A stretch of DNA of 64,000 nt from a virus, in IMG/VR virus record IMGVR_UViG_3300033153_007754, positions 62,001 to 126,000 of that record; one strand, given 5' to 3'. Position 1 is the stretch's first letter. Each line of letters starts with the position of its first letter. Under the pieces are notes generated by a model, which made no database searches, had not been told where the DNA came from, and saw only the letters and a list, made by a program, of their open reading frames with translations. A program made the translations under genes and the position numbers. This document shows, piece by piece, positions 9,176 to 42,385 of the stretch.

Positions 9176-9238
9176 TTTACTCCTTTGTAATAATATGATT
9201 GTTAATATAATACATTTTTTCATTATTTAATAAACTTT

Positions 9239-10249
9239 TTATTTAACCAACTTACTTAATATTAATAATAAATTTGTAATAGTAATTACTTTATCCACAC
9301 TAAATGAAATTTCCCAGCTTGCACGTGCCAATTCAACAATAGCCTGGTGTTCACCTTTTTCTACAAAATATTTTCTTAATTCAACAAAAATTTGATTCTC
9401 AACATATGTATTTTTCGCATATTCGTGTAACTCTCTTATGTCACCTTTTTTTAAAATATCTATTAATAATTTACTATCAATATTTTGTATTTTATTCTTT
9501 AAATCCCCGTTTCTAATATATTCCTGGTATAATATAGAAAGAATACTTCTAAAATCAGGATAAAACATTTTAATGGCATCAACAACAACACTTTCTTCAT
9601 ATTCTATACTTTCTTTTTTTAATATTGAAAATATTCTATGTAATAATTGTGTGATTATTTCACTCTGATTTTCTTTATATATTTTATCTAAAAATAATTC
9701 CCCAGATTTAAACCGACTTCTAATTGGTGGTATTATTTTTTCTGGATAATTAAGTGTTGCAATAAACCTAACCCTGTCTTTATATTCTTCTATAAAACCC
9801 CTTAATGATTTTTGTGCTTCTACTGTAAAATTATCAAATTCGTCCAATACAATTATCTTTTTGTCTATATCATTTTGTGTATATGCGAGTACTGATTTTC
9901 TAGTAGCAAATTCTTGTAATTGTTTTCTAACAACATCTATACCATTTTGTGTGGATGCATTAATGAATAATGGTTTTATATTTAATTCTTTTGTTATTAT
10001 TTTTGCAAGTGTTGTTTTACCTAAACCTTGATATCCAATTAACATTATATTTGGCATATCTAATTTATATGAACCATTTCTTTTCTTTTCCAAACTAATC
10101 CAATTCTTCACTAATTGTTTATATTTTTCTGGAAAAACATATTCATTTAAATCTTCAGGATGGTATCTATCCACCCAATCTTTTGATGCTTTCATTTTAT
10201 CAACCACTTCCTTAATGTTTATTTTTTTACCATCCTTTTTTTTAGTCAT
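9239..10249 (-). CDS. gp44: Clamp loader large subunit, gp44-like AAA+
   Basis: A 336-residue AAA+ ATPase with Walker A GYQGLGKT at 72-79, Walker B IIVLDEFD at 132-139, a sensor-1 TLNYPEKI near 165-172 and IRSRF at 177-181 in place of the SRC arginine-finger motif. Size and N-terminal 'WVDRYHPEDLNEYVFP' are typical of T4 gp44 (319 aa). It loads the sliding clamp using ATP. GAGG lies upstream of the ATG. A separate small subunit (gp62) was not recognised nearby. Confidence 0.9.
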   Translation of the reverse strand: MTKKKDGKKINIKEVVDKMKASKDWVDRYHPEDLNEYVFPEKYKQLVKNWISLEKKRNGSYKLDMPNIMLIGYQGLGKTTLAKIITKELNIKPLFINASTQNGIDVVRKQLQEFATRKSVLAYTQNDIDKKIIVLDEFDNFTVEAQKSLRGFIEEYKDRVRFIATLNYPEKIIPPIRSRFKSGELFLDKIYKENQSEIITQLLHRIFSILKKESIEYEESVVVDAIKMFYPDFRSILSILYQEYIRNGDLKNKIQNIDSKLLIDILKKGDIRELHEYAKNTYVENQIFVELRKYFVEKGEHQAIVELARASWEISFSVDKVITITNLLLILSKLVK

Positions 10250-10328
10250 TCATTTACCTCACTATAGTATATCATGAAATATTATTACATTTTTTTTTTA
10301 TTTAACTAAATCATTTTAAAAAAAATAC

Positions 10329-10393
10329 TTGACAAACCCAAAAAAAACTGTATATTGTAGATAGATGGCAATTAAGCCATGATTCAATAGGAG
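10329..10393 (+). promoter_or_regulatory. Sigma70-like promoter with 5' dyad cassette (copy A)
   Basis: TTGACA at 10329-10334 and TATATT at 10351-10356 are separated by 16 bp. Eight bases further lies the perfect dyad ATGGCAATTAAGCCAT (10365-10380), followed by AGGAG at 10389-10393 and the ATG at 10400. The dyad falls at or just after the expected start site, so the mRNA would begin with a 5-bp hairpin with an AAUUAA loop. The same arrangement recurs at six other places in the window. Confidence 0.85.
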
Positions 10394-10399
10394 AATGAT

Positions 10400-11380
10400 A
10401 TGATTGAGAATACTATGTGGTGTCCAAATTGTAATGAGGGCGAGGAATTAAAGAACATTAGTGATGGAAATATAAAGTGTAGAACATGTGGGTACATAGG
10501 AAAGCCGAATTGTCTTACCAATCCGTCATCGACAGAATTGGTAACCAGTGAGGAAGATATTAACGAATTGGTAGATTGTGTTACGGATAAATCACATCAA
10601 ACAACTGGTATTGGCTTTTTTAGTGCAGGGTCTGTTGATATAATTAATTTAATAAATGAAAATGAAGGGTTATTGAAATATGATTCATATGGTTCATTTA
10701 TTTTTATTATTTGGAATGGGGAAAACACCCAAAAAGTAATAGATTTATTAAAAAAAGGCGATGTGTTTCATGCCTTTATTTTAAATCACAATCATTGGTC
10801 ATATTCACAGGAAGATACACTTAAAAGAATTTCAGGTCTAATTCAATATTGGAATAACCATACTTCATCCATTACCTATCATAAGGTAAAAAATCAACAA
10901 ATTGAATTAAATAAAAAACATGTAGAATGTATGGAAGGTATGGGAGTATATTCTACTAAAGATATTAATGATTTTATGCATCCAATATATTTACTAAACA
11001 GAATATATAAAAACAAAGAAATAACTAAAAGGGATATGGGTGAGTTAAAAAAACTTATCCCTGATAATGCTGAAGGGATTAAATTAATTGAAAATTTTAA
11101 ATCTGATGTGTGTAGAGATTTTTTTCACCATGGTCATTTAGGTTATGATGAATATTTAGATACACATCTACCCATTTACAATATGTTAATAAAAAATCTA
11201 CCAGAAAACATTAAAAAAATCATATCTGGAGGGACTGATTCTTATAGTTACTCATATGAAGAAGAATGGGGTAAAAGAATGAACCAAAATGTCCATAGAA
11301 TTGACACTGAATTTATGCTTAATCAATTAAAAGGTTTAAGGCAATATGCTAGACTATTAATAGATATAGAAAAAAACTAA
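10400..11380 (+). CDS. Zinc-ribbon protein of unknown function (326 aa)
   Basis: The first gene behind promoter copy A. The N-terminus has a zinc ribbon (CPNC near residues 8-11, CRTC near 27-30). The rest is alpha/beta with many His and aromatic residues. Residues around 66-77 (HQTTGIGFFSAG) and the C-terminal ~30 (TEFMLNQLKGLRQYARLL) reappear almost intact in the 50-residue gene at 12885-13037. The early-type promoter suggests a host-takeover or regulatory role; no family is recognised. Confidence 0.75.
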   Translation: MIENTMWCPNCNEGEELKNISDGNIKCRTCGYIGKPNCLTNPSSTELVTSEEDINELVDCVTDKSHQTTGIGFFSAGSVDIINLINENEGLLKYDSYGSFIFIIWNGENTQKVIDLLKKGDVFHAFILNHNHWSYSQEDTLKRISGLIQYWNNHTSSITYHKVKNQQIELNKKHVECMEGMGVYSTKDINDFMHPIYLLNRIYKNKEITKRDMGELKKLIPDNAEGIKLIENFKSDVCRDFFHHGHLGYDEYLDTHLPIYNMLIKNLPENIKKIISGGTDSYSYSYEEEWGKRMNQNVHRIDTEFMLNQLKGLRQYARLLIDIEKN

Positions 11381-11415
11381 ACAATCCCCAATTAAATAAA
11401 ATAAAATAAAAACGC

Positions 11416-11480
11416 TTGACGAATCCCGAAAAATCAGTATACTCTAAGTAGATGGTAATTAAGCCATAACCCAAGGGAGG
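11416..11480 (+). promoter_or_regulatory. Sigma70-like promoter with 5' dyad cassette (copy B)
   Basis: TTGACG at 11416-11421 and TATACT at 11438-11443 with a 16-bp spacer, then the dyad ATGGTAATTAAGCCAT at 11452-11467, then GGGAGG before the ATG at 11486. The inner pair of the stem is T/G, which can still pair as U-G in RNA. Confidence 0.85.
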
Positions 11481-11485
11481 ATACT

Positions 11486-12073
11486 ATGAAAGTCATTGAA
11501 TCAAATAACGCATATATGCAGAAAGCGGAATCAATAATTATAACTTTTATTCAACCTATGTTTCATAGGGATTATAAGAATTCTTTAATGTATAATATCA
11601 AAGAAGTGTTATCATACCTATCAAAAAGAAAAAACACACCATCATTAAGCCTACATTGGTTGAATATGTCTTTAGAAAATGGATTCACTCACATGGCATT
11701 AAATAAAAGAATAGAAAAAAAAACTATAAAAAAACTTAATAAAATTAGATTAAAAAAAATATCATTATCCGATAATGAATATAGGTTACTGGGTACACAC
11801 ATTGGTTTAAATGGTAGTAATTCAATTAACTCTTTGGTTGATGATAACTATTCTTATGTTGCACTAGAAGATTATAAGGATGGAACTAATTTTTCAAAAC
11901 ATAAAATAGCCGGTTTAATATCTTCATTAGAAGAAAAAGGTTTTATATATAATGAAGATATTGGTCAAAATACTTTATATGTATTAAATGTTGATTATTT
12001 ATTAGAATATATTTTAACTGAGGAAGAATGTAGTATGTCTTTTTGGGATTGGGAATTATTCAGAGTGAAATAA
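11486..12073 (+). CDS. Hypothetical protein with winged-helix-like C-terminus
   Basis: A 195-residue protein expressed from promoter copy B with a GGGAGG site. The C-terminal part (about residues 135-180: FSKHKIAGLISSLEEKGFIY and following strands) has the shape of a winged helix: a recognition-like helix, then a beta wing. The N-terminal half is helical and basic (IEKKTIKKLNKIRLKK). A DNA-binding early regulator is a plausible inference, not shown by a known signature. Confidence 0.6.
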   Translation: MKVIESNNAYMQKAESIIITFIQPMFHRDYKNSLMYNIKEVLSYLSKRKNTPSLSLHWLNMSLENGFTHMALNKRIEKKTIKKLNKIRLKKISLSDNEYRLLGTHIGLNGSNSINSLVDDNYSYVALEDYKDGTNFSKHKIAGLISSLEEKGFIYNEDIGQNTLYVLNVDYLLEYILTEEECSMSFWDWELFRVK

Positions 12074-12131
12074 AACATCAGACCTAAACAAGTCTTAAAA
12101 CTGTTTTTTTTTCATTAGGAGGGTTGTAATA

Positions 12132-12875
12132 ATGTATAAGTACACGGTAACATTGATATGTTACCAAAACAGGAAGTTTTTAGAAATCGTATTCATTGTC
12201 ACATCAATATGTGGTTTAGAACATTTTAGTGGTGGTGAATTATTGGATATTATCGAAAAATTAAACATTGATATTGTATTTGATACTTCAATTATATGTG
12301 ACGATTGGGAATCAGATGTAGATTTTAAAATAATACACCAAAATGAATTGGTGTTAAAAGATGAAAACAAAATAAACACCAAATTTAAAATTAAAGCTGA
12401 TGAATTAAATAGTGATATATTAAAACATAAATTAGAAAGTCTAAAATTAAAGTGTGAAAAATATGATTTTATAAGTGAGATTTTAGAATCAGAAACAAGA
12501 AATTTAACTAAGGATGAAAAATTGTTTCATAGTGGTTTTAGTTTTGAATATGACGAATATATGTATTTTAAAGAAAGAAGAATGAAGGAATTTATAATTG
12601 ACAGGAAGGGTAGAATACATAGGGTTGCTGAAAACCTTTATTTTTCCCGTTGGGGTTGGGATGGTACATCATTTCATGATAAAATCACCAAACCATTTTT
12701 CCAAAATGTTAAATACCCTAAATCACATGCAGTTAATAAAGGATGGATTATAATTGGTAGCCATGTTGGATTTAAAATTATTGTAATGCCAACAATAAGA
12801 CAAATAGAAACATTAAAAAAATTGGGTTGGCATAGTATATGGTTTAATGGTGAATATTTAAATATTAATAATTAG
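12132..12875 (+). CDS. Hypothetical protein (247 aa)
   Basis: Third gene of the plus-strand accessory block, with AGGAGGG before the ATG. The N-terminal ~110 residues are alternating beta/alpha. The C-terminal half is rich in aromatic and basic residues, with FSRWGWDGTSFHDKI and HAVNKGWIIIGSHVG. No family is recognised. The 58-bp gap upstream has no clear promoter, so it is probably co-transcribed with 11486-12073. Confidence 0.7.
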   Translation: MYKYTVTLICYQNRKFLEIVFIVTSICGLEHFSGGELLDIIEKLNIDIVFDTSIICDDWESDVDFKIIHQNELVLKDENKINTKFKIKADELNSDILKHKLESLKLKCEKYDFISEILESETRNLTKDEKLFHSGFSFEYDEYMYFKERRMKEFIIDRKGRIHRVAENLYFSRWGWDGTSFHDKITKPFFQNVKYPKSHAVNKGWIIIGSHVGFKIIVMPTIRQIETLKKLGWHSIWFNGEYLNINN

Positions 12876-12884
12876 GAGGATAGT

Positions 12885-13037
12885 ATGTGTGTTCAAAAAG
12901 AAAATGTAATGAACCAAACAACAGGGTTTGGTTTTTTTAGTGCTGGTGATATTGAACACATTAACACTAAATTCATGCTTAATCAATTAAGAGGTGTAAT
13001 TCAATGCCTTAGATTATTAACAGATATAGGAAAATAG
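12885..13037 (+). CDS. Mini-paralogue of the 326-aa zinc-ribbon protein
   Basis: A 50-residue ORF with TTAGGAGGATAGT before its ATG, 9 nt after the preceding gene. NQTTGFGFFSAGDIEHIN matches QTTGIGFFSAG of the 326-residue protein at 10400-11380. TKFMLNQLRGVIQCLRLLTDIGK matches that protein's C-terminus. It therefore looks like an internal-deletion derivative that keeps one internal segment and the C-terminal helix. A good ribosome site and intact frame argue that it is expressed. Confidence 0.65.
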   Translation: MCVQKENVMNQTTGFGFFSAGDIEHINTKFMLNQLRGVIQCLRLLTDIGK

Positions 13038-13058
13038 GAACACACTATTCTCTCAAAA

Positions 13059-14135
13059 CTAAACAATACCCATCTCAATCAAATTAAAAATAAAATTTTC
13101 ATAATTACTGACAGTTCCAGCAAAAGTATCAAAGTTTAACGAATCTATATACCCATTTAATATAGCTGGTTGTAGAATATCTAATTTCACCACAATATCT
13201 TTTAATAAAATTGTATCAACATAACCATATTTAATATATTTTTTGTAATCATTTAAGTATAACTTTTCAAGGTTACCTTCATCGTGGTAATTAACTTTCC
13301 CATATTCATCACCTAAAATTGTTTTTGCAACATAATCTAAAGAATATTTTGGAAGTGGTGGGTAATACACTTTTAATAAATCCATACTATCTATCTGTGA
13401 AACCCCCAAAATATCAACAGCATCATATTCACCAAATTTATCCCTGCCTGTATAAGTTCTTACCTTACCAAAAGGTGAAAAGTTCTTACCACCGAGACCA
13501 ATTTTTTCAGCACGATAATAGAGATATGGGTCATCAAATTTAGAACCATTATGTGCTATTATGATATCATTATTTTCTTTTAAATATTCAAAGAAATGTG
13601 ATATTAAATCTTTTTCGTTTTCAAAATGTTTATAATAATCATATGTCTGAGTATAATCTTCTTTGTAACCAAAAGCAAAACTATGTTTTTTATTAAAATC
13701 ATAACCTGTTATTAGTGTTACAGCGTGTTTGGCTTCTTTAACATTCACTCTTTTACCATCGAACCTGGTTTCTATGTCATAATAAAGTGGCCGTGGAATG
13801 TTTAAATCCATTAAATCTACATCCAAACTAAAGTTTTTACTGATATATTGACACTCTATAGTATCAACACCATACAAATCTATTTCACCATCTTTTTTCA
13901 ATGTTCGTAATAAATTTTTATATTCTTTAATGTCGTTTGATTTATATTCAGCAACATTAACACCTTCTATTGTAACACAAGTGTTTTCACTTTCATTTGC
14001 AGATTCTATATATAACCTTAAAGGCATTTGTTTTATTATTTTTGAAACATATTCTAATGTCATAAAATCATAATATTTTAAATATAATTTATTTCTATAT
14101 TCCTTGATATAAGTATATTGTTGTTTTATTTCCAT
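13059..14135 (-). CDS. gp43A: DNA polymerase B, 3'-5' exonuclease part (split gp43, N-terminal)
   Basis: A 358-residue protein corresponding to the N-terminal and exonuclease domains of family B polymerase. Exo I LYYDIET lies near residues 118-124, Exo II HNGSKFDDPYL near 195-205, and Exo III YGYVDTILL with Asp near 307. It ends cleanly a few tens of residues after Exo III, before where palm motif A would begin. The polymerase half is a separate gene at 18371-20275. The two should assemble to give a proofreading polymerase. The start chosen follows GGGTAATAAC; an in-frame ATG four codons upstream is possible. Confidence 0.88.
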   Translation of the reverse strand: MEIKQQYTYIKEYRNKLYLKYYDFMTLEYVSKIIKQMPLRLYIESANESENTCVTIEGVNVAEYKSNDIKEYKNLLRTLKKDGEIDLYGVDTIECQYISKNFSLDVDLMDLNIPRPLYYDIETRFDGKRVNVKEAKHAVTLITGYDFNKKHSFAFGYKEDYTQTYDYYKHFENEKDLISHFFEYLKENNDIIIAHNGSKFDDPYLYYRAEKIGLGGKNFSPFGKVRTYTGRDKFGEYDAVDILGVSQIDSMDLLKVYYPPLPKYSLDYVAKTILGDEYGKVNYHDEGNLEKLYLNDYKKYIKYGYVDTILLKDIVVKLDILQPAILNGYIDSLNFDTFAGTVSNYENFIFNLIEMGIV

Positions 14136-14200
14136 GTTATTACCCATTCTTGAAAAGAATAATTATAGTTTTTTTTTGATATTTAAGGAATCTTTTTTTG

Positions 14201-14326
14201 TTAAGATTTCATTTCATTAAGTTGATTCTTAATGTCTTTAACGTCATTTTCTGATAGTTTAACTCCACCCAGACGTTCATCCACATCATTTAATATTTCG
14301 CTCAATTCATCTAAATGTTCACTCAT
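14201..14326 (-). CDS. Small coiled-coil-like protein (41 aa)
   Basis: An ORF read by eye: it starts MSEHLDELSEILNDVDERLG with a strong GGAGGTAAAA site and ends with Lys/Asn-rich helix. Heptad-like Leu/Ile spacing suggests a short coiled coil. It precedes the exonuclease gene on the same strand. Confidence 0.6.
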   Translation of the reverse strand: MSEHLDELSEILNDVDERLGGVKLSENDVKDIKNQLNEMKS

Positions 14327-14349
14327 TTTTACCTCCATATATTAACTTT

Positions 14350-14658
14350 TTATTTAGTGATAATATTCACCAATTTTTTAGGAATAAGAACTATCTTTTC
14401 GATATTTTTATCACCAATATATTTTATTACAGCCGAATTATTCATAGCAAGTCTTTCAATTGCACCCTTGTCTTCATCTTTATATATAACTTCTTTCCCT
14501 ATTAATTTCCCATCCACTTGAAAAATGACAACTGTATATTCACCCTCTTCTTTCCATCCACATTTAGTTGATTCAATATATGAAAAAGGGTTGAGAAAAA
14601 AACAATCAATACATTCTGCTATATCATTAATAAGTATTTCACGTATTTCATCAATCAT
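14350..14658 (-). CDS. Small protein resembling the leucyl-tRNA synthetase C-terminal domain
   Basis: A 102-residue protein, translationally coupled (ATGA) to the upstream gene. From about residue 42 the order is VVIFQVDGKLIGK, a helix ERLAMNNSAVIKYI, and the ending KIVLIPKKLVNII. This follows the C-terminal domain of bacterial LeuRS ('v.qvnGKvr.k ... er......v.kyl ... rKviyvPgKLlNlv') in order and spacing. There is no catalytic HIGH/KMSKS portion. In LeuRS this domain contacts tRNA-Leu. A phage modulator of host LeuRS or a tRNA binder is an inference. The comparison is from memory and needs a profile search. Confidence 0.45.
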   Translation of the reverse strand: MIDEIREILINDIAECIDCFFLNPFSYIESTKCGWKEEGEYTVVIFQVDGKLIGKEVIYKDEDKGAIERLAMNNSAVIKYIGDKNIEKIVLIPKKLVNIITK

Positions 14659-15014
14659 TTTTTACCACCATGTTGATTTAATAAAAGTTCAATTTCTTTA
14701 TCTTCTTCATCAGTTGTATCAAGACCTTTATCTTCTGTCAATAAATTGTTTACTTCGATTAATTTATTTAATAACACCATGTTACTTGTATTGTAGCCAT
14801 CTAAAGTAATCCTTAAAGAATCATGTATCTCTTTAATTAACTTAATTAACCCTAAATCAACATCTTCATTATTATTATTATCTGCACGTTGCATCAATTT
14901 CTTTAAAAATTGTTTTAAATCCTTTATTGATTCTTTATATTCTTTACGGATAAAAACAACTTCATTGTTAAACGCTTTTACATTCCCCTCTATTTTAATA
15001 ACATCCTTATCCAT
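14655..15014 (-). CDS. Helical hypothetical protein (119 aa)
   Basis: The start at MDKDVIKIEGNVKAFNN has GGTGATTACT upstream; a longer frame with a hydrophobic N-terminus overlaps the previous gene and is rejected. The product is almost all helix with a coiled-coil pattern and an acidic C-terminus. It lies between probable virion genes and the LeuRS-like gene. Its function is unknown. Confidence 0.6.
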   Translation of the reverse strand: MDKDVIKIEGNVKAFNNEVVFIRKEYKESIKDLKQFLKKLMQRADNNNNEDVDLGLIKLIKEIHDSLRITLDGYNTSNMVLLNKLIEVNNLLTEDKGLDTTDEEDKEIELLLNQHGGKK

Positions 15015-15642
15015 AGTAATCACCAATATTAAATTTAATAACAAATTCAAATATATGTTTAAAATCACCTTCTTTATCAAATTGATAATTAACACCAACT
15101 TCATCATCATATTCATGTAAAAGATTCACCCCATTTGGTGGTAAATTTGTTAAATAATTTTCTGTGTTATGATATAAATAAAGTAACATAACACTTTCAT
15201 AATAATTCTCTAAACTAGATAAAATCTCTTCACTAATATTTTTCCAATTAATTATCTTTCTTATGTATAAATAATAAGAATCAGTGTTATAATTTAATAA
15301 CATATTGTTTAATGCAGTACTATCATTTTCGTCAACAAATTTTAAATATCTTGTTACAAAAGGTGTAACATTCTTATCAACATGTATTTTATCATAATCA
15401 TTAGAATCACCTGTATCATAGCAAAGCGTTAATAAGCCATCCGCATCTGAAAGTATATTATTTAACAATAAAACATTTGGGTCAGAGCTTCTAATATCTT
15501 CATATGTTGTTGTTGCCGTTGCTGTATTTATTTTATCTTTAGATAAAAGTAAATATAAAAATTTACCATTTTTAATAAATCTCACAATCATTTTTATTAT
15601 ACCAGCATTAACAGCATTAAAAATCGTATTTTGTTTACTCAT
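15007..15642 (-). CDS. Hypothetical protein, probable virion/tail component
   Basis: A 211-residue protein with GAGAGG before the ATG, coming 2 nt after the adhesin-like gene in transcription order. It has a helical centre rich in Tyr and Asn and no known motif. Its place next to the beta-rich 547-residue protein and the tube-like 170-residue protein suggests a structural role, but this rests on context alone. Confidence 0.6.
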   Translation of the reverse strand: MSKQNTIFNAVNAGIIKMIVRFIKNGKFLYLLLSKDKINTATATTTYEDIRSSDPNVLLLNNILSDADGLLTLCYDTGDSNDYDKIHVDKNVTPFVTRYLKFVDENDSTALNNMLLNYNTDSYYLYIRKIINWKNISEEILSSLENYYESVMLLYLYHNTENYLTNLPPNGVNLLHEYDDEVGVNYQFDKEGDFKHIFEFVIKFNIGDYYG

Positions 15643-15644
15643 GT

Positions 15645-17288
15645 TTACCTCTCATTTAAATAACGATAAACACCACTATCTTTATCATAGTAACCTAAAA
15701 TAACATATTCCCCATAATACCCCGTTAGCTCTGTTTTAGTTGCACCACCAGCATCTTCCACTAATTTTAGTTCACCACTTAAATGTGATTCTAAAAGATA
15801 AAATGATTTAACAGCTCCTTCATTTGCGTAACTTTTTAATATAAATGCATTATTTAAAATTATATTACTTGATGTAAACAATGGTTTTATTATAATGCTA
15901 TCAGTACCACTTTCTTTAACCAACATACCATCAAACATATTATTTTCATTTGCGAATTCAGTGTTTTTAGGTAAATTAATTAAAAATTGTTTTCTTTCTG
16001 TTATGTTTCCTAAAGCCATATTAACATTTAATGGCATTACACATAAATAATCATCATTTTTTCGCATAACAATATAATCATTTGTTATATACGCAACATC
16101 AGATAAATTAAAAACTTCATCATTTAAAATGTCATCATTATTGTCTTTTTGGATTGGTATATTCCATTGTGATAATAATACACCAGTATTTAAATCAAGT
16201 GATTGCATAAATGTATTATCACCGTTTTTATTTGGTGATGCCCTAAACAACACAAAAACCTGTCTGATAATATCTATTTGGTGTGATATATAATCCGTAT
16301 CAGTCAAACTAATTGCTTGTATTACACTCACATCTGTATTATTTACGGTAACACTACTTCCAGTTCCACTTAATGTAAAATAACCAACATTTAGATTATC
16401 CACACCTGAAGTACCTGTAATATACCACATGTTTGAACCTGATGTTGTTATGTACATTTGCCTAAAATTGGTGGCTGAATTAATTGTCAATGAACCAGTA
16501 TTTAATGAAAGAGGGTACGGAATTGCGTCCGAAGCTACATATGCAATACTAACAGTTGTATCATACGGATTTACACCATAGATAGATGTTATAATAGCAT
16601 AATCATTATCCATATCATATGTTACATCATAGCTTTGTATAGTCTCTGTTGTTGAGTTACCAAGGGTTGACATAACCGTTGTAATACTTGGTGTAATAAA
16701 GTTAAATAAAAACTTAGCAGTCCAATGATATTTAGTTCCTGGTGCACCAGTTATATAATTAGTAGCAGTAACATAAAAACCCAGTGATTGACTTCCAGAA
16801 TCATAATAACAATAAATGTGAGAGTTTTGTGAGGTTTTTTCCTGTAATATTTGGTTTGTTGTTATTACCTCACTATGTTCTCCATTATAAAAATCTAGTG
16901 TATCACCATTTAATCCATCATATTTAACAAAAAGATGTGTTTCGTTATTGTATTCATATAGAACTAAATAAAAAATAATACTATAATCACCCCCAATCAT
17001 ATAATATTTTTTTACTTCATGAATATAAGTATAATCCACCCCTAAATTAAATGTCATATATCCATCGTTTAATGTGGATGGTATGCTTATACCTTCAGGT
17101 GTATTGATATACACTAAATGTTCACTTTGAAATTCAGGTGCATCTAATACAGAAACTTGGTGTTTTTTAAACATATCTGTTTCCGTGTTGAAATTATTCT
17201 CAACTAATTTGTTGTATTTTTCGTAAAACTCTTTAATTTTATTGGTACTTGGAATGACCAGTAAATCCGATTTTGGATATAAACTCAT
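15645..17288 (-). CDS. Beta-rich putative adhesin / tail accessory protein
   Basis: A 547-residue protein, start MSLYPKSDLL with AGGAG 12 nt upstream. It is rich in Thr, Ser, Asn and Tyr, with repeated short beta segments ('YDVTYDMDNDYAIITSIYG', 'SFYLLESHLSGELKLVE') as in propeller-like surface proteins. Cys is rare and there is no signal peptide. These features and the neighbours suggest a receptor-binding or other exposed tail protein. No specific family is recognised. Confidence 0.6.
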   Translation of the reverse strand: MSLYPKSDLLVIPSTNKIKEFYEKYNKLVENNFNTETDMFKKHQVSVLDAPEFQSEHLVYINTPEGISIPSTLNDGYMTFNLGVDYTYIHEVKKYYMIGGDYSIIFYLVLYEYNNETHLFVKYDGLNGDTLDFYNGEHSEVITTNQILQEKTSQNSHIYCYYDSGSQSLGFYVTATNYITGAPGTKYHWTAKFLFNFITPSITTVMSTLGNSTTETIQSYDVTYDMDNDYAIITSIYGVNPYDTTVSIAYVASDAIPYPLSLNTGSLTINSATNFRQMYITTSGSNMWYITGTSGVDNLNVGYFTLSGTGSSVTVNNTDVSVIQAISLTDTDYISHQIDIIRQVFVLFRASPNKNGDNTFMQSLDLNTGVLLSQWNIPIQKDNNDDILNDEVFNLSDVAYITNDYIVMRKNDDYLCVMPLNVNMALGNITERKQFLINLPKNTEFANENNMFDGMLVKESGTDSIIIKPLFTSSNIILNNAFILKSYANEGAVKSFYLLESHLSGELKLVEDAGGATKTELTGYYGEYVILGYYDKDSGVYRYLNER

Positions 17289-17301
17289 ATTTTTTAAACT
17301 C

Positions 17302-17814
17302 CTATAAAAAATCCATTGTGAAATATTCATATATAAATTCGACATCTACTGTTTTATACACAACGTCTTGTATAAGTGATGTTCTATTAATACGACTATA
17401 ACTCGCAAATATAGTATTGTGATAAGTTATTTTAATAAGAGGTTTTTTAGAAACATTATCCATTTTAAAAACAACTAAATTAAAACGATTAGCGTCTTCA
17501 CTAATTCTATGTTTTAATGAAGACATATCTATTAGATTTTCAGCAAAATATTTATATAAAAATTTCATAATATTCCACTTATTATCTAAAATAAACGGAA
17601 TAGTAATATTTTCAAAATTCAATATTGTATCAACAATTATGTGTTCATAACCGTTTCTATGGTTCTTTTTTTTAGTGAAATTCAGACCCATCCCAACTAA
17701 ATCAACACTTAAGGCATAATGTTCTAAATTTTCACCACCTTTAAAATCAAATACGATTAAATAATTATTGTCAATGTCAAAATTCTTTGGTAGTTCACCT
17801 GTAAATTCAATCAT
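17302..17814 (-). CDS. Tail-tube-fold-like structural protein
   Basis: A 170-residue protein whose ATG follows directly on the upstream stop codon. The C-terminus alternates strands and ends in VYKTVDVEFIYEYFTM, resembling the last strand of tube-fold proteins such as gp19 and gp54 ('...v.f.y.yf'). The central helix FLYKYFAENLIDM also fits that fold. It may be a baseplate or tube-initiator protein; this is a fold-level guess. Confidence 0.5.
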   Translation of the reverse strand: MIEFTGELPKNFDIDNNYLIVFDFKGGENLEHYALSVDLVGMGLNFTKKKNHRNGYEHIIVDTILNFENITIPFILDNKWNIMKFLYKYFAENLIDMSSLKHRISEDANRFNLVVFKMDNVSKKPLIKITYHNTIFASYSRINRTSLIQDVVYKTVDVEFIYEYFTMDFL

Positions 17815-18048
17815 TTACGCAATCCATATTCTAATGCCATAAATTATCGTTTGGTTTAATGGTGTATCGTTAAAATAAATTGCCTGTGTTGCGTCTTCTG
17901 TTATTTTAAAACTCCCCGTTTCAAAATCAATTGATAAACCCTCATTTGCAAAAACAGTAATATCGTTTTCTGTATTATAATCTTCTAAATTATGTTTTTT
18001 TTGAAATGTTTTAAATAATTCATTAAATTCTCTAATATATTCACCCAC
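17815..18048 (-). CDS. Small hypothetical protein with GTG start (77 aa)
   Basis: It begins at a GTG eight bases after GGGGTT, 23 nt downstream of a TATAAATAG late element. The N-terminal half is helical and charged, and the C-terminal half looks like short strands (SIDFETGSFKITEDATQAIYF). It is probably a late virion or assembly protein; no family is recognised. Confidence 0.6.
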   Translation of the reverse strand: MGEYIREFNELFKTFQKKHNLEDYNTENDITVFANEGLSIDFETGSFKITEDATQAIYFNDTPLNQTIIYGIRIWIA

Positions 18049-18070
18049 AAATAACCCCTAAATATATAAT

Positions 18071-18079
18071 CTATTTATA
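18071..18079 (-). promoter_or_regulatory. Late-promoter-like TATAAATAG
   Basis: An exact TATAAATA on the minus strand, 23 nt before the GTG start at 18048. It overlaps the end of the gene at 18075-18371, so the virion-like genes between the two polymerase parts can be expressed late and independently. Confidence 0.6.
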
Positions 18080-18371
18080 GAAAATCGTTAATACCATTGC
18101 TTTTTTTATTTTTCTTGAATTCATTAAAGAAATAACCACCATCTTTATATAGTTTCTGAATTCTATCTTTAAAAAAGCCTGGCATATTTTTATTGAAATC
18201 ATCTAATTCATTATCATCTTCTACGTTATACATACTCAACGCATTTACTAATAATTTAGCTATATTATCACCTTCTACATAATCTTCATAAACTTTATTC
18301 CAAATTATGTTATAAAATTTATTCTTTAGTGCTGTGTCATTTTTTAAATCTTTAAAGCTGTGAAAATCCAT
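18075..18371 (-). CDS. Hypothetical protein coupled to polymerase subunit (98 aa)
   Basis: Its ATG overlaps the polymerase stop codon (TAATG) with GGGAGTAC upstream, so it is translationally coupled to the polymerase gene. It is a helical, Lys/Asp/Asn-rich protein with no known motif. Coupling makes a polymerase partner possible but unproven. Confidence 0.6.
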   Translation of the reverse strand: MDFHSFKDLKNDTALKNKFYNIIWNKVYEDYVEGDNIAKLLVNALSMYNVEDDNELDDFNKNMPGFFKDRIQKLYKDGGYFFNEFKKNKKSNGINDFL

Positions 18372-20275
18372 TAAAAGTACTCCCTAAAATTGTTTGTTTT
18401 TTTCAATTGCCATCCGGCCGCCCCTAATAAAATATTTAAACTAGATAGATAAAAAGCATCAAATTGTAAATCATAATCTATATCAGTTACAAAATATTTC
18501 ATCATTTCTAAATTTCTAAAAGTGATTGTATCACCTTTACCCGTAAATTGTTTATTTGCCTTTAAATACACGAAATAAGCATAATCACCATTTTCAATAA
18601 AAGATGTTGGGATATTGTGTTTTCTAATTAAATAATTACAATAAGCTGCGCCCCTAAGTATTGGAGTTGCTTTTGGTTGTATTACATAATCAGCTTTTTT
18701 TATTATCTTATTATCTTTAAATAATTTTCTATAAGTATTTATCTTATAAGCATTTTTTAATGCATTATGTGTACTATATTCTTTTATATATTTGTGATAT
18801 TTATTTACCTTTGTGTTTTGTGCAATTTGTGTTATATCCATAGTTTTAAATTCTTTTCTTATTTTTTCAACAAATCCCCTTAATTCATCAATTTTATTTC
18901 TAAATATTATATCAACACTATGTTCTAACCACTTTGTTATAACAACCGGGTACGAAACATTTTTTGTAGATAACCCCGTTGTTTTTAATTTGTATGGTGT
19001 AAAAAACTTACCTTCGTCATACAAAGTTTTCATTACGTATTTTTTCTTTTCAACGTGCAAAGCCGCTTCATTAATCTTTTCAATTTTCATTTTCATTTTA
19101 TATTCAAATTTATTAATATAGTCACTACTATTTTTAAATGTTGTATCAATTATTGGTTGTGCAACCTTTTCATTAAATACTAAAATATCATTAATTAGTT
19201 CCTTGTTGGTTGCATAGACTTTGTTTTTATATAGTGCCTGTATAAGTGGGTCAATATTTACGTAAACCGAATCTGTGTCTATATATATAGATGGTTCATA
19301 ATCTTTGTAATCTGGAAACATAATTTTAAAATTATCTGTTACGGATTTAGCAATAGATTTAATATAATATTGGCTTAAAGATGTTATTGCATTTGCAACA
19401 TCCAAATCATAATATTTGTAATAAGCATTCGCAAAAGCACCATAACCCTTGTTTAAATTCCGTTTAAATGCTAAATCTTTCGTTCTGTAAACCCTTTCTT
19501 GTTCACCCCAATATTTAATGTTCTTTTCGTCATTGTTTTCTTTAGCTTTATTTAATCCATCAATAGCATTACTTCTATGTGCTTTTGCAACTAAACGTTT
19601 ATCATATAAATAATTCATAGCCACACACATAACACTTTTCTTGTTTAGTTTAAAAAACATAAGATTTGGTGTTACTGATAAATTATACTTTTCTAAAAAA
19701 CCACCAAAATCTATTGTTCTTGTTACCATCAAATCTATTGTTGCGGCTAAAATATCTCTATAAAGTGGGTCACTCGATTTTCTATATAAAATGTTAAAAT
19801 ATGATTTTGGAAATTCAAAACTTAATAAATCATCTTTTCTATATTCATCTGTTTTAATTAATAAGTATTCCCCACCTCTTTTAACTGCAATTCTTTTACC
19901 TTCTTCAATTTTTTCTTTTTTTAATTTACCAGTTCCATCAAAAAAATGATGATAAAAAGTAGAACCCTTTCTGCTATACATAGACTTTGTCATTTTCTTT
20001 ATAGGAACGTGTCTACCTTTGCCAGTTTCAAACACATTGAATATCTCAACCTGTTTAAATAAATGTTCCCTAAAGTCAATTGGTAAATCAGCCAACATTA
20101 TTTTATTTTCCTTTCCAATATTAGCTGTCATAATAGCGGATGGATATTCCGAGTTAACATCAAAAGACATTGTAAAACCATACAATCCACGTTTAGTTAA
20201 ATAATTATAACCACCCAAATAAGGGTACTTTTCTGAATGTGCAACAAAACGCCCACTAACCAATTTTCTATTCAT
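18371..20275 (-). CDS. gp43B: DNA polymerase B, palm/fingers/thumb part (split gp43, C-terminal)
   Basis: A 634-residue protein holding the polymerase half of a family B enzyme. Motif A SFDVNSEYPS lies at about 37-46 (Glu replaces the usual Leu of SLYPS), motif B K..xN..YG at about 271-279, and motif C YIDTDS at about 331-336. It starts just before motif A, so the exonuclease domain is absent and encoded at 13059-14135. The C-terminal thumb region follows. The weak site GGTG precedes the ATG. It lies downstream of a DnaN-like clamp gene, which may serve this polymerase. Confidence 0.92.
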   Translation of the reverse strand: MNRKLVSGRFVAHSEKYPYLGGYNYLTKRGLYGFTMSFDVNSEYPSAIMTANIGKENKIMLADLPIDFREHLFKQVEIFNVFETGKGRHVPIKKMTKSMYSRKGSTFYHHFFDGTGKLKKEKIEEGKRIAVKRGGEYLLIKTDEYRKDDLLSFEFPKSYFNILYRKSSDPLYRDILAATIDLMVTRTIDFGGFLEKYNLSVTPNLMFFKLNKKSVMCVAMNYLYDKRLVAKAHRSNAIDGLNKAKENNDEKNIKYWGEQERVYRTKDLAFKRNLNKGYGAFANAYYKYYDLDVANAITSLSQYYIKSIAKSVTDNFKIMFPDYKDYEPSIYIDTDSVYVNIDPLIQALYKNKVYATNKELINDILVFNEKVAQPIIDTTFKNSSDYINKFEYKMKMKIEKINEAALHVEKKKYVMKTLYDEGKFFTPYKLKTTGLSTKNVSYPVVITKWLEHSVDIIFRNKIDELRGFVEKIRKEFKTMDITQIAQNTKVNKYHKYIKEYSTHNALKNAYKINTYRKLFKDNKIIKKADYVIQPKATPILRGAAYCNYLIRKHNIPTSFIENGDYAYFVYLKANKQFTGKGDTITFRNLEMMKYFVTDIDYDLQFDAFYLSSLNILLGAAGWQLKKTNNFREYF

Positions 20276-20507
20276 ATTTTGCACCACAAATTATTTGGGT
20301 TTTTCTCTTATTAAACAATAATAAATCATCACATTTGAGACACTTTTTATCAGCCACAAGGCAATTTTTTTTATCACAAACATTTTGTGTTATCTTATTA
20401 TTAATTATTGTAAATAAACTAATTAAATTAACATTTGCATCTTCTATATATTTATTATCATCACTTTCTTTATATGGTTTCCCAAACATTATTTTATATT
20501 CCATCAT
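20268..20507 (-). CDS. Cys-rich small protein, probable zinc-binding (79 aa)
   Basis: Two CxxC-like groups (VCDKKNC, KKCLKC) and a further Cys near the C-terminus suggest a zinc site. The gene overlaps the polymerase start and lies between DnaN-like clamp and polymerase, with GGGG before the ATG pair. It may be a replication accessory; no family is recognised. Confidence 0.6.
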   Translation of the reverse strand: MMEYKIMFGKPYKESDDNKYIEDANVNLISLFTIINNKITQNVCDKKNCLVADKKCLKCDDLLLFNKRKTQIICGAKYE

Positions 20508-20512
20508 ATCCC

Positions 20513-21610
20513 CTAATCTAAATCCATTGGCATTATATAATAATTAGTTTTAATACTACTATTTAATTTAGGATACACTCTAATTACTTCATCATTCTGA
20601 ATAAAATCAAATACCACTTCATTACTTTTCAATTTTTTTAATATTAACTCTAAAAAATGACCAGACAATCCTATTTGATTTATTTTATATTTGGATAATC
20701 CTATTTTAATTTTAGACTTTAATTTACTGTTATCAAAATCGTTTGTTCTTAAATACATGTTTTTACCATCAAGTGAATCTAATATAATTAAAAATGTATC
20801 TTTATTACTTAAAGCATTGATATCTGTAACATTTTTCAACAAACGTTTTCTATTAAAAAACAAAAGATTACCATTCTCTCTTGTTATAGATTCCCAGTTA
20901 ATAAAATCATTCCCTTGTGTTAATTCCCAGATTTCAAAATACTTGTTTTTAACACAAAACATATTATTACTTTTATCATAACTAATTTGTACTTTTAAAT
21001 TATTATTTCGGTATGGTGTTAATACTTTTATTAGATTTATTACAAATGTATTGTGTAATAAGAATTGGTATTCAACATCAGTTTGTTTAAAAATATTGAC
21101 ATTATTATGTGCTAATATAAAACTATTAGTTCCTATTATACCCTTATTACCAATACACACATTTTGTAATCTTTTTTTTGTAACATCTTTAGATGTCATT
21201 TCAGCAACATTTTCTAACTTTTCCAATAAACTGTTTAATGATATTTCACCCTTTAATTCATATTTGCTTATGTTTTGCGGATAAACAAAGCCATTATCAT
21301 GTAAATTCTCCACAACAAAGTTATATTTTTTATTAGAAATTTCGATTGAATCAAACAATTTCACCTCTGTTTGATAATCACTTAGATGGTTTTTAATTTT
21401 TAGTAAAACCTGTGGATTAAAGAATATGTTTTTAGTTGTTTCCTTGTTGATAGTAACGTTTTTTGGTAGATTGTATATAATACCACCACCTTCACTAATT
21501 CTTGCTACCAGCGCCTTTTTTTTAACATCCAAACAGACTGGATTGAAATTAAAATCCATAGTATTTAAAAAATTGGTTACACTGGTTATTATCGTATTAA
21601 ACTTTTGCAC
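20513..21610 (-). CDS. dnaN: Bacterial-type sliding clamp (DnaN-like beta clamp)
   Basis: A 365-residue protein, the usual DnaN length (~366), starting at a GTG eight bases after GGAG. Markers in order: KRLQNVCIG..GIIGTNSFILA (domain 2 'L.gv....vATDghRLA'), EIWELTQGNDFINWESI ('i.rLieG.FPdY..ViP'), LLFFNRKRLLKNVTDI ('...r..Ll.al.rv..l'), and the last residues YYIMPMDLD ('yviMPmrl'). It would be a three-domain dimeric ring. Its presence beside the polymerase, in addition to a gp45-like clamp, is unusual. Confidence 0.8.
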   Translation of the reverse strand: MQKFNTIITSVTNFLNTMDFNFNPVCLDVKKKALVARISEGGGIIYNLPKNVTINKETTKNIFFNPQVLLKIKNHLSDYQTEVKLFDSIEISNKKYNFVVENLHDNGFVYPQNISKYELKGEISLNSLLEKLENVAEMTSKDVTKKRLQNVCIGNKGIIGTNSFILAHNNVNIFKQTDVEYQFLLHNTFVINLIKVLTPYRNNNLKVQISYDKSNNMFCVKNKYFEIWELTQGNDFINWESITRENGNLLFFNRKRLLKNVTDINALSNKDTFLIILDSLDGKNMYLRTNDFDNSKLKSKIKIGLSKYKINQIGLSGHFLELILKKLKSNEVVFDFIQNDEVIRVYPKLNSSIKTNYYIMPMDLD

Positions 21611-21663
21611 TATTAAAACTCCATTAAATATATTGTTTGTATTATAATGTAGTTGTAATATTT

Positions 21664-21671
21664 AATAAATA
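21664..21671 (+). promoter_or_regulatory. Late-promoter-like AATAAATA
   Basis: AATAAATA lies 32 nt before the ATG at 21703, the same distance as other late elements in this window. No TTGACA box lies upstream. Confidence 0.4.
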
Positions 21672-21702
21672 TTTTTATGCAATGTTTTTTAAGGGGGTTG
21701 TT

Positions 21703-21804
21703 ATGGCAACATGTAAGTGTGGTAGTAGTAGAACTGTAATGGGTGATGATGGTGTTTTGTATTGTGTTAGTTGTGGAAAAAAATTAAGTGGTGGTAGAAA
21801 ATGA
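21703..21804 (+). CDS. Mini zinc-ribbon protein (33 aa)
   Basis: A 33-residue ORF with AAGGGGG upstream: MATCKCGSSRTVMGDDGVLY then CVSCGKKL. Cys pairs CxC and CxxC form a one-knuckle zinc ribbon. Its stop overlaps the next start (ATGA), so the following gene is coupled. It is too short for an enzyme; such ribbons commonly mediate nucleic-acid or protein contacts. Confidence 0.65.
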   Translation: MATCKCGSSRTVMGDDGVLYCVSCGKKLSGGRK

Positions 21805-22361
21805 TAAAATTAATAACAAAAATAATTGATTTAATAACCTTAATATTTACTTTTTGGAAAGATAGAAAAAATAAAGACGATGTTAAAACAACTGGCATCA
21901 ATTCACTGAATGATTTAAATCTTACAACAGACGATTTTACAAATTTATGGTTACTAGCTAATGATAATAAAAATAAATTGATAAGATTAAGATTGAATAA
22001 AAAACAAAAAAAAGCAAATAAAGGTAAAATTGTGAACTGGGAAAAACAAGATGGGAAATCAACAATAATTTTATTACAGATTTTTATGGCTATGATAAAA
22101 GAAGTTAATAACGGAAAAAAATTTGGTTTAATATTAGATAGTGTTAGTAGATTTCAAAAAGTTGCTACTTTTTTAAAAGAAATCCAAAGCGCAAATAACA
22201 ACCTAAGGAATAATTTTAGTCTTTTAAAAATAGAAACAAACAAAACAATTACTTGTGATATAAATAACACTAAATTATACATAACATCTAAAAGAAAAAA
22301 AGATGATGATTTTAAAGCGCTTGATTTAAATTTTTTATTTGAGGATATAAATGAGATATAA
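21801..22361 (+). CDS. Hypothetical protein with degenerate P-loop-like motif
   Basis: A 186-residue protein with a hydrophobic N-terminal helix (residues 1-18). The middle has EKQDGKSTIILLQIF, which resembles a Walker A with its first Gly missing. Strands follow, then LDLNFLFEDINE, which resembles a Walker B. The order recalls the ATPase core of terminase-like proteins, but it is far shorter. Motif degeneration means ATPase activity is doubtful. Late element and coupling to the mini zinc ribbon are seen directly. Confidence 0.55.
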   Translation: MIKLITKIIDLITLIFTFWKDRKNKDDVKTTGINSLNDLNLTTDDFTNLWLLANDNKNKLIRLRLNKKQKKANKGKIVNWEKQDGKSTIILLQIFMAMIKEVNNGKKFGLILDSVSRFQKVATFLKEIQSANNNLRNNFSLLKIETNKTITCDINNTKLYITSKRKKDDDFKALDLNFLFEDINEI

Positions 22362-22935
22362 CAAACATTTTAGATGGTTTCTTGCATCTAATATTAATAA
22401 TAACCCAGCTTTAACATACGAAACAAAGCCGTTTATTGCTTTTGGTTATAACCCTGCTGTAAATACTGATACTGAACCTGATTTTAGTGATTTCGTGGGT
22501 GGTGGGTTTAATAAACTGGATAAAATAAAAATAGTTAAAGATAAAGAATTACTGGAAACACCACATATAACTATAAATGGTAGAGATTATTTATATCTTT
22601 CTAGTGTTTCCAACTTCGATACTTTTGATGACATAATTGGAAGTGTAGATATAAGTAAAGACGATGTTTTTTATCACTTACATTTACAAAAAGCTGTTGA
22701 TTTAACATACTATAAAAACAATACAATCCATGATAAAATTAATCAAATATTAATATTTTTAATTAAAAATAAAACTGGTTCGCCTTACAAATATGATGAT
22801 TACACACTTGATGAATTAAATTGTGATAATCTAACATCTGATTATGAGATAATCCCACTTGCTTTACAGTATACAACTATTTTAGATTTATCAGCCACTT
22901 CGGAATTATATTTTCAATTTGATGTAATTATTTAA
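22351..22935 (+). CDS. Hypothetical protein, possible tail/neck component
   Basis: A 194-residue protein overlapping the previous gene by 11 nt, with GAGG upstream of the ATG. It shows alternating strands and a helical middle (NTIHDKINQILIFLIKNKTG) and ends with YFQFDVII, a strand-like end common in tail-terminator or neck proteins. That is only a resemblance; no specific family is recognised. Confidence 0.55.
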   Translation: MRYNKHFRWFLASNINNNPALTYETKPFIAFGYNPAVNTDTEPDFSDFVGGGFNKLDKIKIVKDKELLETPHITINGRDYLYLSSVSNFDTFDDIIGSVDISKDDVFYHLHLQKAVDLTYYKNNTIHDKINQILIFLIKNKTGSPYKYDDYTLDELNCDNLTSDYEIIPLALQYTTILDLSATSELYFQFDVII

Positions 22936-22995
22936 ATTTCTTTACTAATTAAATACAAAATACTATAATTATATTTTTCACAGGAAGGTATTATT

Positions 22996-23511
22996 ATGAA
23001 AAAGAATGAAGTCATTTTATCAATAAAATATGGTAAAAATGATAAATTAGAAGATTTATTTGGCACAATAAAAGAAAAAGGTTATGAAATGGAAATAATC
23101 GAATATAAAAATAGGTTTAATTTCTTTTCTTTCATTAAAAATATCTGGAATAAAATAAAAAAAACATATAATAAATATAATATTGAAATTGGTGGTGTTA
23201 TATTTGTAGTTGTTTTTATTGTGGTGGTGGGTTTATTAGGTCAATCTCTTTTCAAATACTTGAGTGAATCACAGCGAAAAAGTGATGATGAATATAAACA
23301 ATATTTGAAGACAACTATAGAAAAAAATATTACAATTGGTGTATCTAAAGATTGCTTAATAAAGTATAAAAAACCAGCAAATGAATTAATTCGTAATATA
23401 TACAAGGATAGATATTCTGATATAGGTTCTTCACCAAAAAAGGATAAAGAAATAGAACTTGAAATAAACAAATCTTTAAATGAACTATGTGAAGGTTTTG
23501 TTAATGAATAA
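22996..23511 (+). CDS. Single-pass membrane protein, paralogue 1
   Basis: A 171-residue protein with AGGAAGG before the ATG. The N-terminal cytoplasmic part has KLEDLFGTIKEKGYEMEIIEYK. One transmembrane helix spans about residues 65-88 (GGVIFVVVFIVVVGLL). The C-terminal domain has two conserved Cys (GVSKDCLIKY and LNELCEG), which could form a disulfide outside the cytoplasm. It is 171 residues long, as is the next gene, and aligns with it throughout. Superinfection exclusion or envelope modification is possible; the function is unknown. Confidence 0.7.
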   Translation: MKKNEVILSIKYGKNDKLEDLFGTIKEKGYEMEIIEYKNRFNFFSFIKNIWNKIKKTYNKYNIEIGGVIFVVVFIVVVGLLGQSLFKYLSESQRKSDDEYKQYLKTTIEKNITIGVSKDCLIKYKKPANELIRNIYKDRYSDIGSSPKKDKEIELEINKSLNELCEGFVNE

Positions 23512-23533
23512 ATTATTATAAAATGGTGGTGTT

Positions 23534-24049
23534 ATGGATAAGAATGAAGTTGCATTATTAATTAAATATAATGAAGAGGATAAGTTAGAAAACCTGTTTT
23601 TAGGAATCAAAGAAAAAGGTTACGAAATGGAGATAATTGAATATAAAAGGAAGTTTAAACCCGTTTCGTTTATTAATATTATTTTATCTGGATACAAGGA
23701 TATATATATTAAATATTATAGAGAAATCTGGGTTACTATAATCTCAATATTTTTTTTACTTCTAATATCAGTTACATACACATTCACCTCTGATTTAGCA
23801 AAATCCTTAAATAAAAATGATGATGGTGGGTATGATTTATTTTTAAAGAAAAGTATACAAAAAAATATTACAATGGGTGTGTCTGGGTCTTGTTTAAAAA
23901 CATATAGTAAAACAGCAAATAATATTATTAAGAAAATATACACCCATAATCGTACTAATATAGGTTATTCACCCAAAGAAGATAATAAAATAAATAATAA
24001 AATAAACAAGTCTTTAAATGGACTATGTGAAGGTTTTGTTAATGAATAA
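23534..24049 (+). CDS. Single-pass membrane protein, paralogue 2
   Basis: A tandem duplicate of the preceding gene: same length (171), N-terminal KLENLFLGIKEKGYEMEIIEYK, a membrane helix at about 70-90 (IISIFFLLLISVTYTF), and C-terminal GVSGSCLKTY ... LNGLCEGFVNE with both Cys conserved. The membrane helix has diverged most. A GGTGGTGTT site precedes the ATG. Confidence 0.7.
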   Translation: MDKNEVALLIKYNEEDKLENLFLGIKEKGYEMEIIEYKRKFKPVSFINIILSGYKDIYIKYYREIWVTIISIFFLLLISVTYTFTSDLAKSLNKNDDGGYDLFLKKSIQKNITMGVSGSCLKTYSKTANNIIKKIYTHNRTNIGYSPKEDNKINNKINKSLNGLCEGFVNE

Positions 24050-24061
24050 ATGGAGATGTAT

Positions 24062-24373
24062 ATGGAAGATTTATTGGGTTCAATTTTCACCGTAATTGTA
24101 GTTTTTGGTTCTTTCCCAGTAATACATAATTTTATAACCAAGGATTACCAGGAAACAAATAAAAAGCGCAATGACTTCAAGAAAAAACAAGTAGAACTAG
24201 TTATTAAAAAAGGTGTGTCAGAAGTATGTATTTTAAAGTATAAAAAATCAAGCAATAAAATAATCAATGACATTTATTATAAACATAAAAGGGTGATTGG
24301 AGAAAGCTTTAAAAAAGATACTGAAATTGAATATGAAATATATGATGCATTAGAACAATTATGTGGTGTTTAA
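24062..24373 (+). CDS. Membrane protein, shortened paralogue 3
   Basis: A 103-residue protein, start MEDLLGSIF chosen because GGAG lies six bases upstream. It lacks the cytoplasmic N-terminal domain of paralogues 1 and 2 but keeps a membrane helix (residues 5-24) and the C-terminal domain with both Cys: KKGVSEVCILKYKKSSNKII ... LEQLCGV. It converges on and overlaps the 3' end of the minus-strand gene at 24370. Confidence 0.65.
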   Translation: MEDLLGSIFTVIVVFGSFPVIHNFITKDYQETNKKRNDFKKKQVELVIKKGVSEVCILKYKKSSNKIINDIYYKHKRVIGESFKKDTEIEYEIYDALEQLCGV

Positions 24374-24750
24374 ACTAATTCTAAAAGAAAGTGGTATTTA
24401 TCATCTTTTCCCCAAAAATGAGACAATGTATAAACATCATCTTCATACATTTTTTTTAATGCATTCCCAACATCCACAATTGAGTTGGGTACAATTTCCA
24501 AATATTCTTTTACAATATGAGCATATGAAGAATTTTTTAAAAAATCTTTGCCGTAATTGTCTATTAAAGCCTTTTTGAAATCATTTATTACTTCATTAGC
24601 ATCATAATATATATATGATGCCTTGTTTTTCAACATTTTTTTAATTCTTTTTGCATTTTGAATTAAAAGCCGTTCATTCAACACTTTTAATTCACCCTTG
24701 ATTACTTTCTTTTCATTTCTTTTATTTTTCATTCCATAATAACTTAACAT
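24370..24750 (-). CDS. Hypothetical basic helical protein (126 aa)
   Basis: The start MLSYYGMKNKR has a perfect AGGAGGTAGT site; a longer frame with a hydrophobic leader would begin near the promoter -10 box and is rejected. The protein is helical and Lys-rich, with no known motif. It is expressed from the sigma70-like promoter at 24787-24815, so it is likely early. Confidence 0.65.
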   Translation of the reverse strand: MLSYYGMKNKRNEKKVIKGELKVLNERLLIQNAKRIKKMLKNKASYIYYDANEVINDFKKALIDNYGKDFLKNSSYAHIVKEYLEIVPNSIVDVGNALKKMYEDDVYTLSHFWGKDDKYHFLLELV

Positions 24751-24786
24751 ACTACCTCCTAAAAGTAAAAGACAACCCGTTATCAT

Positions 24787-24815
24787 AACATAACTAATTT
24801 TTCTTCATTTGTCAA
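24787..24815 (-). promoter_or_regulatory. Sigma70-like promoter without dyad
   Basis: TTGACA (24810-24815) and TATGTT (24787-24792) on the minus strand with a 17-bp spacer, 37 nt before the start at 24750. It lacks the ATGGC-type dyad seen at other early promoters here. Confidence 0.7.
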
Positions 24816-24896
24816 GCTGTTTTTTAGTTTTTAGTTTATATCACCGACCTGAATGTCGATGTTTCGTAGTAATTTATGTGAAGTTTTAAAGGATGT

Positions 24897-42367: not shown

Positions 42368-42385
42368 GTGATTCTCCTACAAATC

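Follow-up and report, generated by a model that had tools for sequence, protein, structure and literature searches.

How could a T4-type replicative polymerase be built from two genes that lie in inverted order? The question is raised by a 64,000-nucleotide stretch of DNA (hereafter the window) corresponding to bases 62001-126000 of IMGVR_UViG_3300033153_007754, a linear, metagenomic virus record of 153.5 kb. Here a gp43-type family B DNA polymerase (PolB) is divided between two same-strand (-) genes: an exo half (13059..14147), encoding the gp43 N-terminal domain and 3'-5' exonuclease, and a pol half (18371..20287), encoding palm, fingers, thumb and a clamp-tail-like C-terminus. Reading the open reading frames (ORFs) of the window bears out the first-pass annotation of this DNA, in that pol lies upstream of exo, with 4.2 kb and eight ORFs between them. 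We consider it probable that the two products form a non-covalent, two-subunit gp43-type replicase, possibly derived from a tandem duplication of gene 43 followed by complementary loss.

Two genes that together cover gp43

From the first ATG of its ORF, at 14147, the exo half comprises 362 amino acids (aa); the start previously assigned, 14135, is an internal ATG at codon 5, while the ORF and its stop stand as annotated. The product aligns with positions 3-362 of PHROG 262, the T4 gp43 family, far beyond chance (E=4e-54). Residues D124 and E126 of Exo I (13776-13778 and 13770-13772, -), D205 of Exo II (13533-13535, -) and Y307 and D311 of Exo III (Y307/D311 site 13215-13217, -) align with T4 D112, E114, D219, Y320 and D324 and, together with N200, occupy invariant or near-invariant positions in an alignment of ~131 full-length relatives. 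The AlphaFold2 model (pLDDT 88.7, pTM 0.88) finds RB69 gp43 as its best match in the PDB, with a TM of 0.88, and PDB sequence matches of both halves alike are RB69 and T4 gp43. Besides the nuclease core, the ORF retains the whole gp43 N-terminal domain and stops exactly at the border of the palm.

The pol half measures 638 aa from a GTG at 20287 or 634 aa from an in-frame ATG at 20275 (codon 5). The latter, as first annotated, overlaps the stop of the preceding 79-aa ORF (20268..20507, -) and is the likelier start; the overlap likely reflects translational coupling. Similarity to PHROG 262 extends over positions 378-768 (E=2e-76) and a C-terminal segment (736-851), for a total coverage of 368-851; unlike PHROG 262 and PDB sequences, the Pfam model DNA_pol_B (PF00136) gave no match to this half. 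The polymerase motifs tested are all in place: motif A (D43), motif B (K275/N279/Y282/G283), motif C (D337-T-D339) and KKxY (K414-K415-x-Y417). Among the ~131 relatives, R231, K235, K275, N279, G283, D337-T-D339-S and K414-K415-x-Y417 fall at invariant or near-invariant positions. Motif A was read from a separate 45-row alignment of pol sequences, in which D43, S46, Y48 and P49 are invariant, the global alignment having misplaced the pol N-terminus. At the C-terminus, NNFREYF aligns with ASLDFLFG of T4, a correspondence suggestive of a hydrophobic clamp tail. The AlphaFold2 model (pLDDT 79.5, core >90) again matches RB69 gp43 best, with a TMq of up to 0.67. Two insertions distinguish the chain: ~102 aa following motif A (residues 79-180; 19748..20053, -), partly beta-stranded and with no database match, which represents a candidate docking element, and ~30 aa in the thumb region (residues 506-535; 18683..18772, -).

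Coverage of PHROG 262 by the two products is complementary, with positions 3-363 provided by exo and 368-851 by pol, consecutively and without overlap. In pairwise alignments, exo residue 357 corresponds to RB69 373 and pol residue 20 to RB69 388. As the exo product ends at approximately RB69 379 and the pol product starts at approximately 373, the two overlap by a few residues and no gp43 residue is missing at the seam. Aligning the products to gp43, as the first-pass annotation had proposed, therefore joins them without a gap. On the domain limits of the established RB69 structure, the break falls in what we take to be the loop or linker joining the N-terminal domain to the palm. Together, the PHROG 262 and PDB matches and the intact ORFs support the original identification of a gp43-type PolB in two complete genes. 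The Exo I-III acidic residues, motifs A, B, C and KKxY and the modelled gp43 fold are all those of gp43-type polymerases; where these are one polypeptide, the present enzyme comes from two ORFs, which stand in inverted order with 4.2 kb between them.

The arrangement is not specific to a single assembly. L001 (10.7 kb) and L002 (12.5 kb), both assembled from other metagenomes, are 100% identical to the window and span both halves and everything between them, which excludes a chimera of one assembler; these identical contigs are the only other copies of the arrangement. Small indels elsewhere (94 bp and 21 nt) set the window apart from other contigs with these metagenome prefixes, which thus represent separate assemblies of slightly different strains. 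One of them, L229, lacks 94 bp (window 30124-30217) between two perfectly matching stretches, and the alignment of L230 with the terminase region contains 21 gap positions; both are otherwise near-identical strains set apart by these indels. A full-length polymerase gene elsewhere had been named as an observation that would overturn the split, and a search of the whole 153.5-kb record, which may be incomplete, gave no PolB, PolA or DnaE gene besides the two halves.

Genomic context and intervening genes

The window, with a G+C content of 27%, carries T4-type replication, capsid, portal, sheath and baseplate genes of low similarity to known sequences. A search for nearer relatives with capsid, portal and terminase proteins gave isolates with at best 25-35% protein identity, and in IMG/VR near-identical contigs of the same two metagenome prefixes and otherwise relatives at ~25%. 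The virus is a deep-branching, T4-like one known only from metagenomes. Its replication genes include a T4-type clamp, clamp loader, single-stranded DNA-binding protein, primase and helicase. Both polymerase halves lie between the gp45-like sliding clamp (20513..21610, -; phrog_947, E=3e-14) and the gp44-like clamp loader (9239..10249, -; phrog_168, E=2e-61), the order on the coding strand being gp45, the 79-aa ORF, pol, a 98-aa ORF, seven more ORFs and exo. Downstream of exo are three genes on the + strand, followed by gp44.

The first intervening ORF, of 98 aa (18075..18371, -), has a start that overlaps the pol stop. It is followed, on the same strand, by ORFs of 77 aa (17815..18048), 170 aa (17302..17814), 566 aa (15645..17345), 211 aa (15007..15642), up to 153 aa (14655..15116), 102 aa (14350..14658) and, as read from the sequence, 41 aa with an upstream GGAGGT (14201..14326). 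Several of these genes had been described as virion-like, a description that finds no backing in Pfam, PHROG or NCBIfam, where none has a match of note; for the 566-aa protein, moreover, no relative was found among phages. The accompanying suggestion of a late promoter is reasonable. A T4-late-type element, TATAAATA, lies between pol and exo, 24 nt upstream of the 77-aa ORF (18072..18079, -). Overall this element is not enriched (30 copies against 29 expected); 10-70 nt upstream of genes, five copies were found against 1.1 expected, among them the copies that precede the genes for the major capsid protein and the portal. The exo gene is the last of the cluster behind this promoter, while pol sits behind gp45. 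Given the element between them and its occurrence before the capsid and portal genes, expression of exo may follow that of pol.

Several other features of the region were observed. A repeat with copies at 11300-11411 and 12960-13095 comprises the 3' end of an ORF at 10400-11380 and, convergently, the end of exo, with the second copy covering the last codons and stop of the exo gene. The region beside the exo 3' end has accordingly been duplicated, and ORF 12885-13037 is the truncated paralogue left by this event. In the + strand block following gp45, two tandem paralogous genes of 171 aa (22996-23511 and 23534-24049) share ~75% DNA identity and probably encode membrane proteins. Also identified was a recurrent leader (10318-10387, 11405-11474, 42360-42461, 42906-42987 and 43468-43600), in which a strong promoter of the sigma-70 type (TTGACA..TATATT) is followed by conserved sequence, GATGG.AATTAAGCCAT; the leader probably provides the virus with its early promoter.

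Comparison with other divided polymerases

Split gp43 genes are already known. In Aeromonas phage 25, the products of 43A and 43B co-purify and are active (PMC2988022). As in the virus described here, the Aeromonas Biquartavirus phages (25, 44RR and avDM1) encode a T4-family PolB by two genes on one strand of the replication cluster, and gp43 is covered whole by the pair. They differ in that the break lies at palm/fingers, T4 ~500 (PHROG 262 position 497), and in that 43A precedes 43B, with 49 nt between the halves in avDM1. The first-pass annotation rightly assigned the normal order to these phages; such splits are, however, confined neither to Aeromonas nor to a small insert. Acinetobacter phage Lazarus carries several ORFs over ~3 kb between 43A and 43B, one of them an HNH endonuclease gene beside 43B, and Sphingomonas phage PAU carries four genes over 2.4 kb between its gp43 halves, so that neither distance nor unrelated intervening genes are new. 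Both nonetheless retain the Aeromonas-type break and normal order: the break lies at PHROG 262 positions 485-497 in avDM1, Lazarus and PAU, as opposed to 363/368 in the present virus. That Lazarus (L146 and L151; NC_049493.1 44537-50197) and PAU (L145; NC_019521.1 83441-88543) have the Aeromonas break point despite other intervening genes is an observation in its own right; the common break point reflects either a single old split or a hot spot. What is new here is the exo/palm break point together with the inverted order.

Beyond the T4-like phages, family B polymerases encoded by two unlinked genes occur in archaea, namely Methanothermobacter and Nanoarchaeum, the latter with a split intein. 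These are cellular enzymes with other break points, and the Nanoarchaeum halves are joined by protein splicing. In bacterial Pol III, the polymerase alpha (DnaE) and the proofreader epsilon (DnaQ) are separate, non-covalent subunits; the polymerase fold is unrelated to that of gp43 and the architecture is only convergent. Also comparable are the phiKZ-group jumbo phages, which possess an exo-less PolB and an exonuclease encoded elsewhere, such that synthesis and proofreading also reside in separate genes (PMC7824862). Their polymerases, however, form a divergent PolB clade described without a classical sliding clamp (PMC7824862), whereas the present enzyme is a T4-type PolB accompanied by gp45 and gp44, and its nuclease still carries the gp43 N-terminal domain.

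We surveyed the loci of the 80 nearest PolB sequences identified by the pol half, 72 more by the exo half and 50 from bacterial and archaeal assemblies, which constitute a sample among the matches listed, not a census. In every locus covering the exo/palm junction (197 of 197; 80, 71 and 46, respectively), the junction lies within one ORF, and neither a cut at this border nor an inverted order was found among these ~200 relatives. Searches with the patterns NKGYGAF and HNG..FD.PY likewise retrieved other viruses, none with an exo/palm split. Breaks elsewhere were found just after motif A (L037 and L078), near the Aeromonas site (L191 and L226) or as a division into several pieces (L251, L277 and L289), all in normal order. 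Upon closer inspection, the PolB parts of L037 (8058-11251) and L078 (766-4200) lie ~560-760 nt apart, with no Rfam match, and the PolB gene of L226 (9986-13009) contains a group I intron (RF00028, 96 bits). In L121 (4041-8021, -), a T4-like PolB is encoded by two ORFs, the C-terminal one opening with VYDIETENTHMFFGNDILVHN, which resembles an intein C-terminus and is followed by the S of motif C; L121 probably carries a split intein at this DTDS site.

Assembly and origin of the two-part polymerase

In the replicase that we favour, the two chains would dock non-covalently through contacts that gp43 makes within one chain, the pol subunit would bind the gp45 clamp by its C-terminus, and a mismatched primer end would, as in T4, be handed from pol to exo. 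With regard to origin, an insertion into gene 43 would have preserved the normal order and is excluded as the sole cause, as the first-pass annotation had argued. It had called instead for a rearrangement or the transfer of a gene half. If gene 43 was duplicated in tandem between genes 45 and 44, subsequent loss of the exo half from the upstream copy and of the pol half from the downstream copy would yield the pol-exo order without inversion, the late-type gene block having ended up between the halves. Transfer of one half is not needed and is without support. G+C contents of the halves (26.5% and 27.2%) and their third-position G+C (GC3; 17% and 19%) resemble the genome, with genes of the window having a GC3 of 17 +/- 2.5%, and both halves are about equally divergent. 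In trees of each half the virus forms a long, unsupported branch (0.39 and 0.28), by which neither congruence nor half-gene transfer can be shown; neither half is placed with support inside another lineage.

Certain observations weigh against this interpretation. Remnants of the lost halves were not found in the 153.5-kb record, leaving parsimony as the only ground for the duplication model, and in a possibly incomplete record a further polymerase is conceivable. In addition, charged residues occupy near-invariant positions of the deoxynucleoside triphosphate pocket of pol. E47 in motif A (20147..20149, -; T4 L412, RB69 L415) replaces a leucine present in 44/44 and 119/119 readable relatives, K280 (19448..19450, -; T4 S562, RB69 S565) replaces a serine present in 130 of 131, and R276 stands in place of Ile/Val at T4 558. 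The motif A pattern with the Leu-to-Glu change was found in this virus only among viral contigs, and in none of the genome contigs. The changed sites are known fidelity positions, as titles of RB69 mutant structures among the PDB matches of pol name L415, L561, S565 and Y567. E47 and K280 could form a compensating charge pair. With these charged substitutions, the behaviour of pol may differ from that of gp43.

These substitutions also bear on the most serious alternative, which we judge unlikely but worth weighing, that the exo half is a free-standing exonuclease no longer binding the polymerase. Pol would then act alone or be weakly proofread, and exo would serve in repair, recombination or end trimming, or act only late. 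Such a role would accord with the altered fidelity positions of pol, with the placement of exo at the end of the late-type cluster and of pol behind gp45, and with the exo-less PolB and separate exonuclease of the phiKZ group (PMC7824862). Against it, exo keeps the complete gp43 N-terminal domain up to the palm border, and both genes still lie on one strand between gp45 and gp44. More doubtful is a proposal combining the same features, of a dissociable proofreader in which an early or middle pol, with its clamp and altered charged pocket, would be joined by exo from a late operon, the subunit ratio setting a fidelity that changes during infection.

We regard as improbable that one or both halves are decaying while the virus relies on another polymerase, from the host or an unsequenced part of its genome. 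A possibly incomplete record and the altered near-invariant pocket residues would be compatible with decay; however, the catalytic acids are all kept, neither reading frame is interrupted and three assemblies agree fully on both, the search of the record gave no PolA, DnaE or second PolB, and the T4-type replication proteins listed above are present. Lower still is the probability that the halves are joined by a split intein or a trans-splicing intron. Split inteins and introns do occur in phage polymerase genes, as L226 and apparently L121 illustrate among the surveyed loci, and trans-splicing is indifferent to gene order. Yet the exo product extends only ~5 residues beyond its last aligned position and the pol product has only ~15-19 ahead of its first, which leaves no room for intein halves; no self-splicing RNA was matched by Rfam in window positions 9000-25000, and neither a GIY-YIG nor an HNH_3 endonuclease was found in the 153.5-kb record. 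Least probable of all is an assembly error, to which a metagenomic, linear record is open, but which is contradicted by the mismatch-free L001 and L002 across both genes and the interval and by the separate assemblies that the indel-bearing contigs represent.

If the two-subunit replicase is real, it would constitute a natural T4-type enzyme cut exactly between proofreading and synthesis. The arrangement offers a non-engineered test of whether the interdomain contacts of gp43 are alone enough for transfer of a primer between active sites, and of whether fidelity is tuned by subunit supply. It would further indicate that gp43 withstands division at a second point as well as reversal of the order of its gene halves, and would provide a likely case of duplication and complementary loss splitting an essential enzyme.

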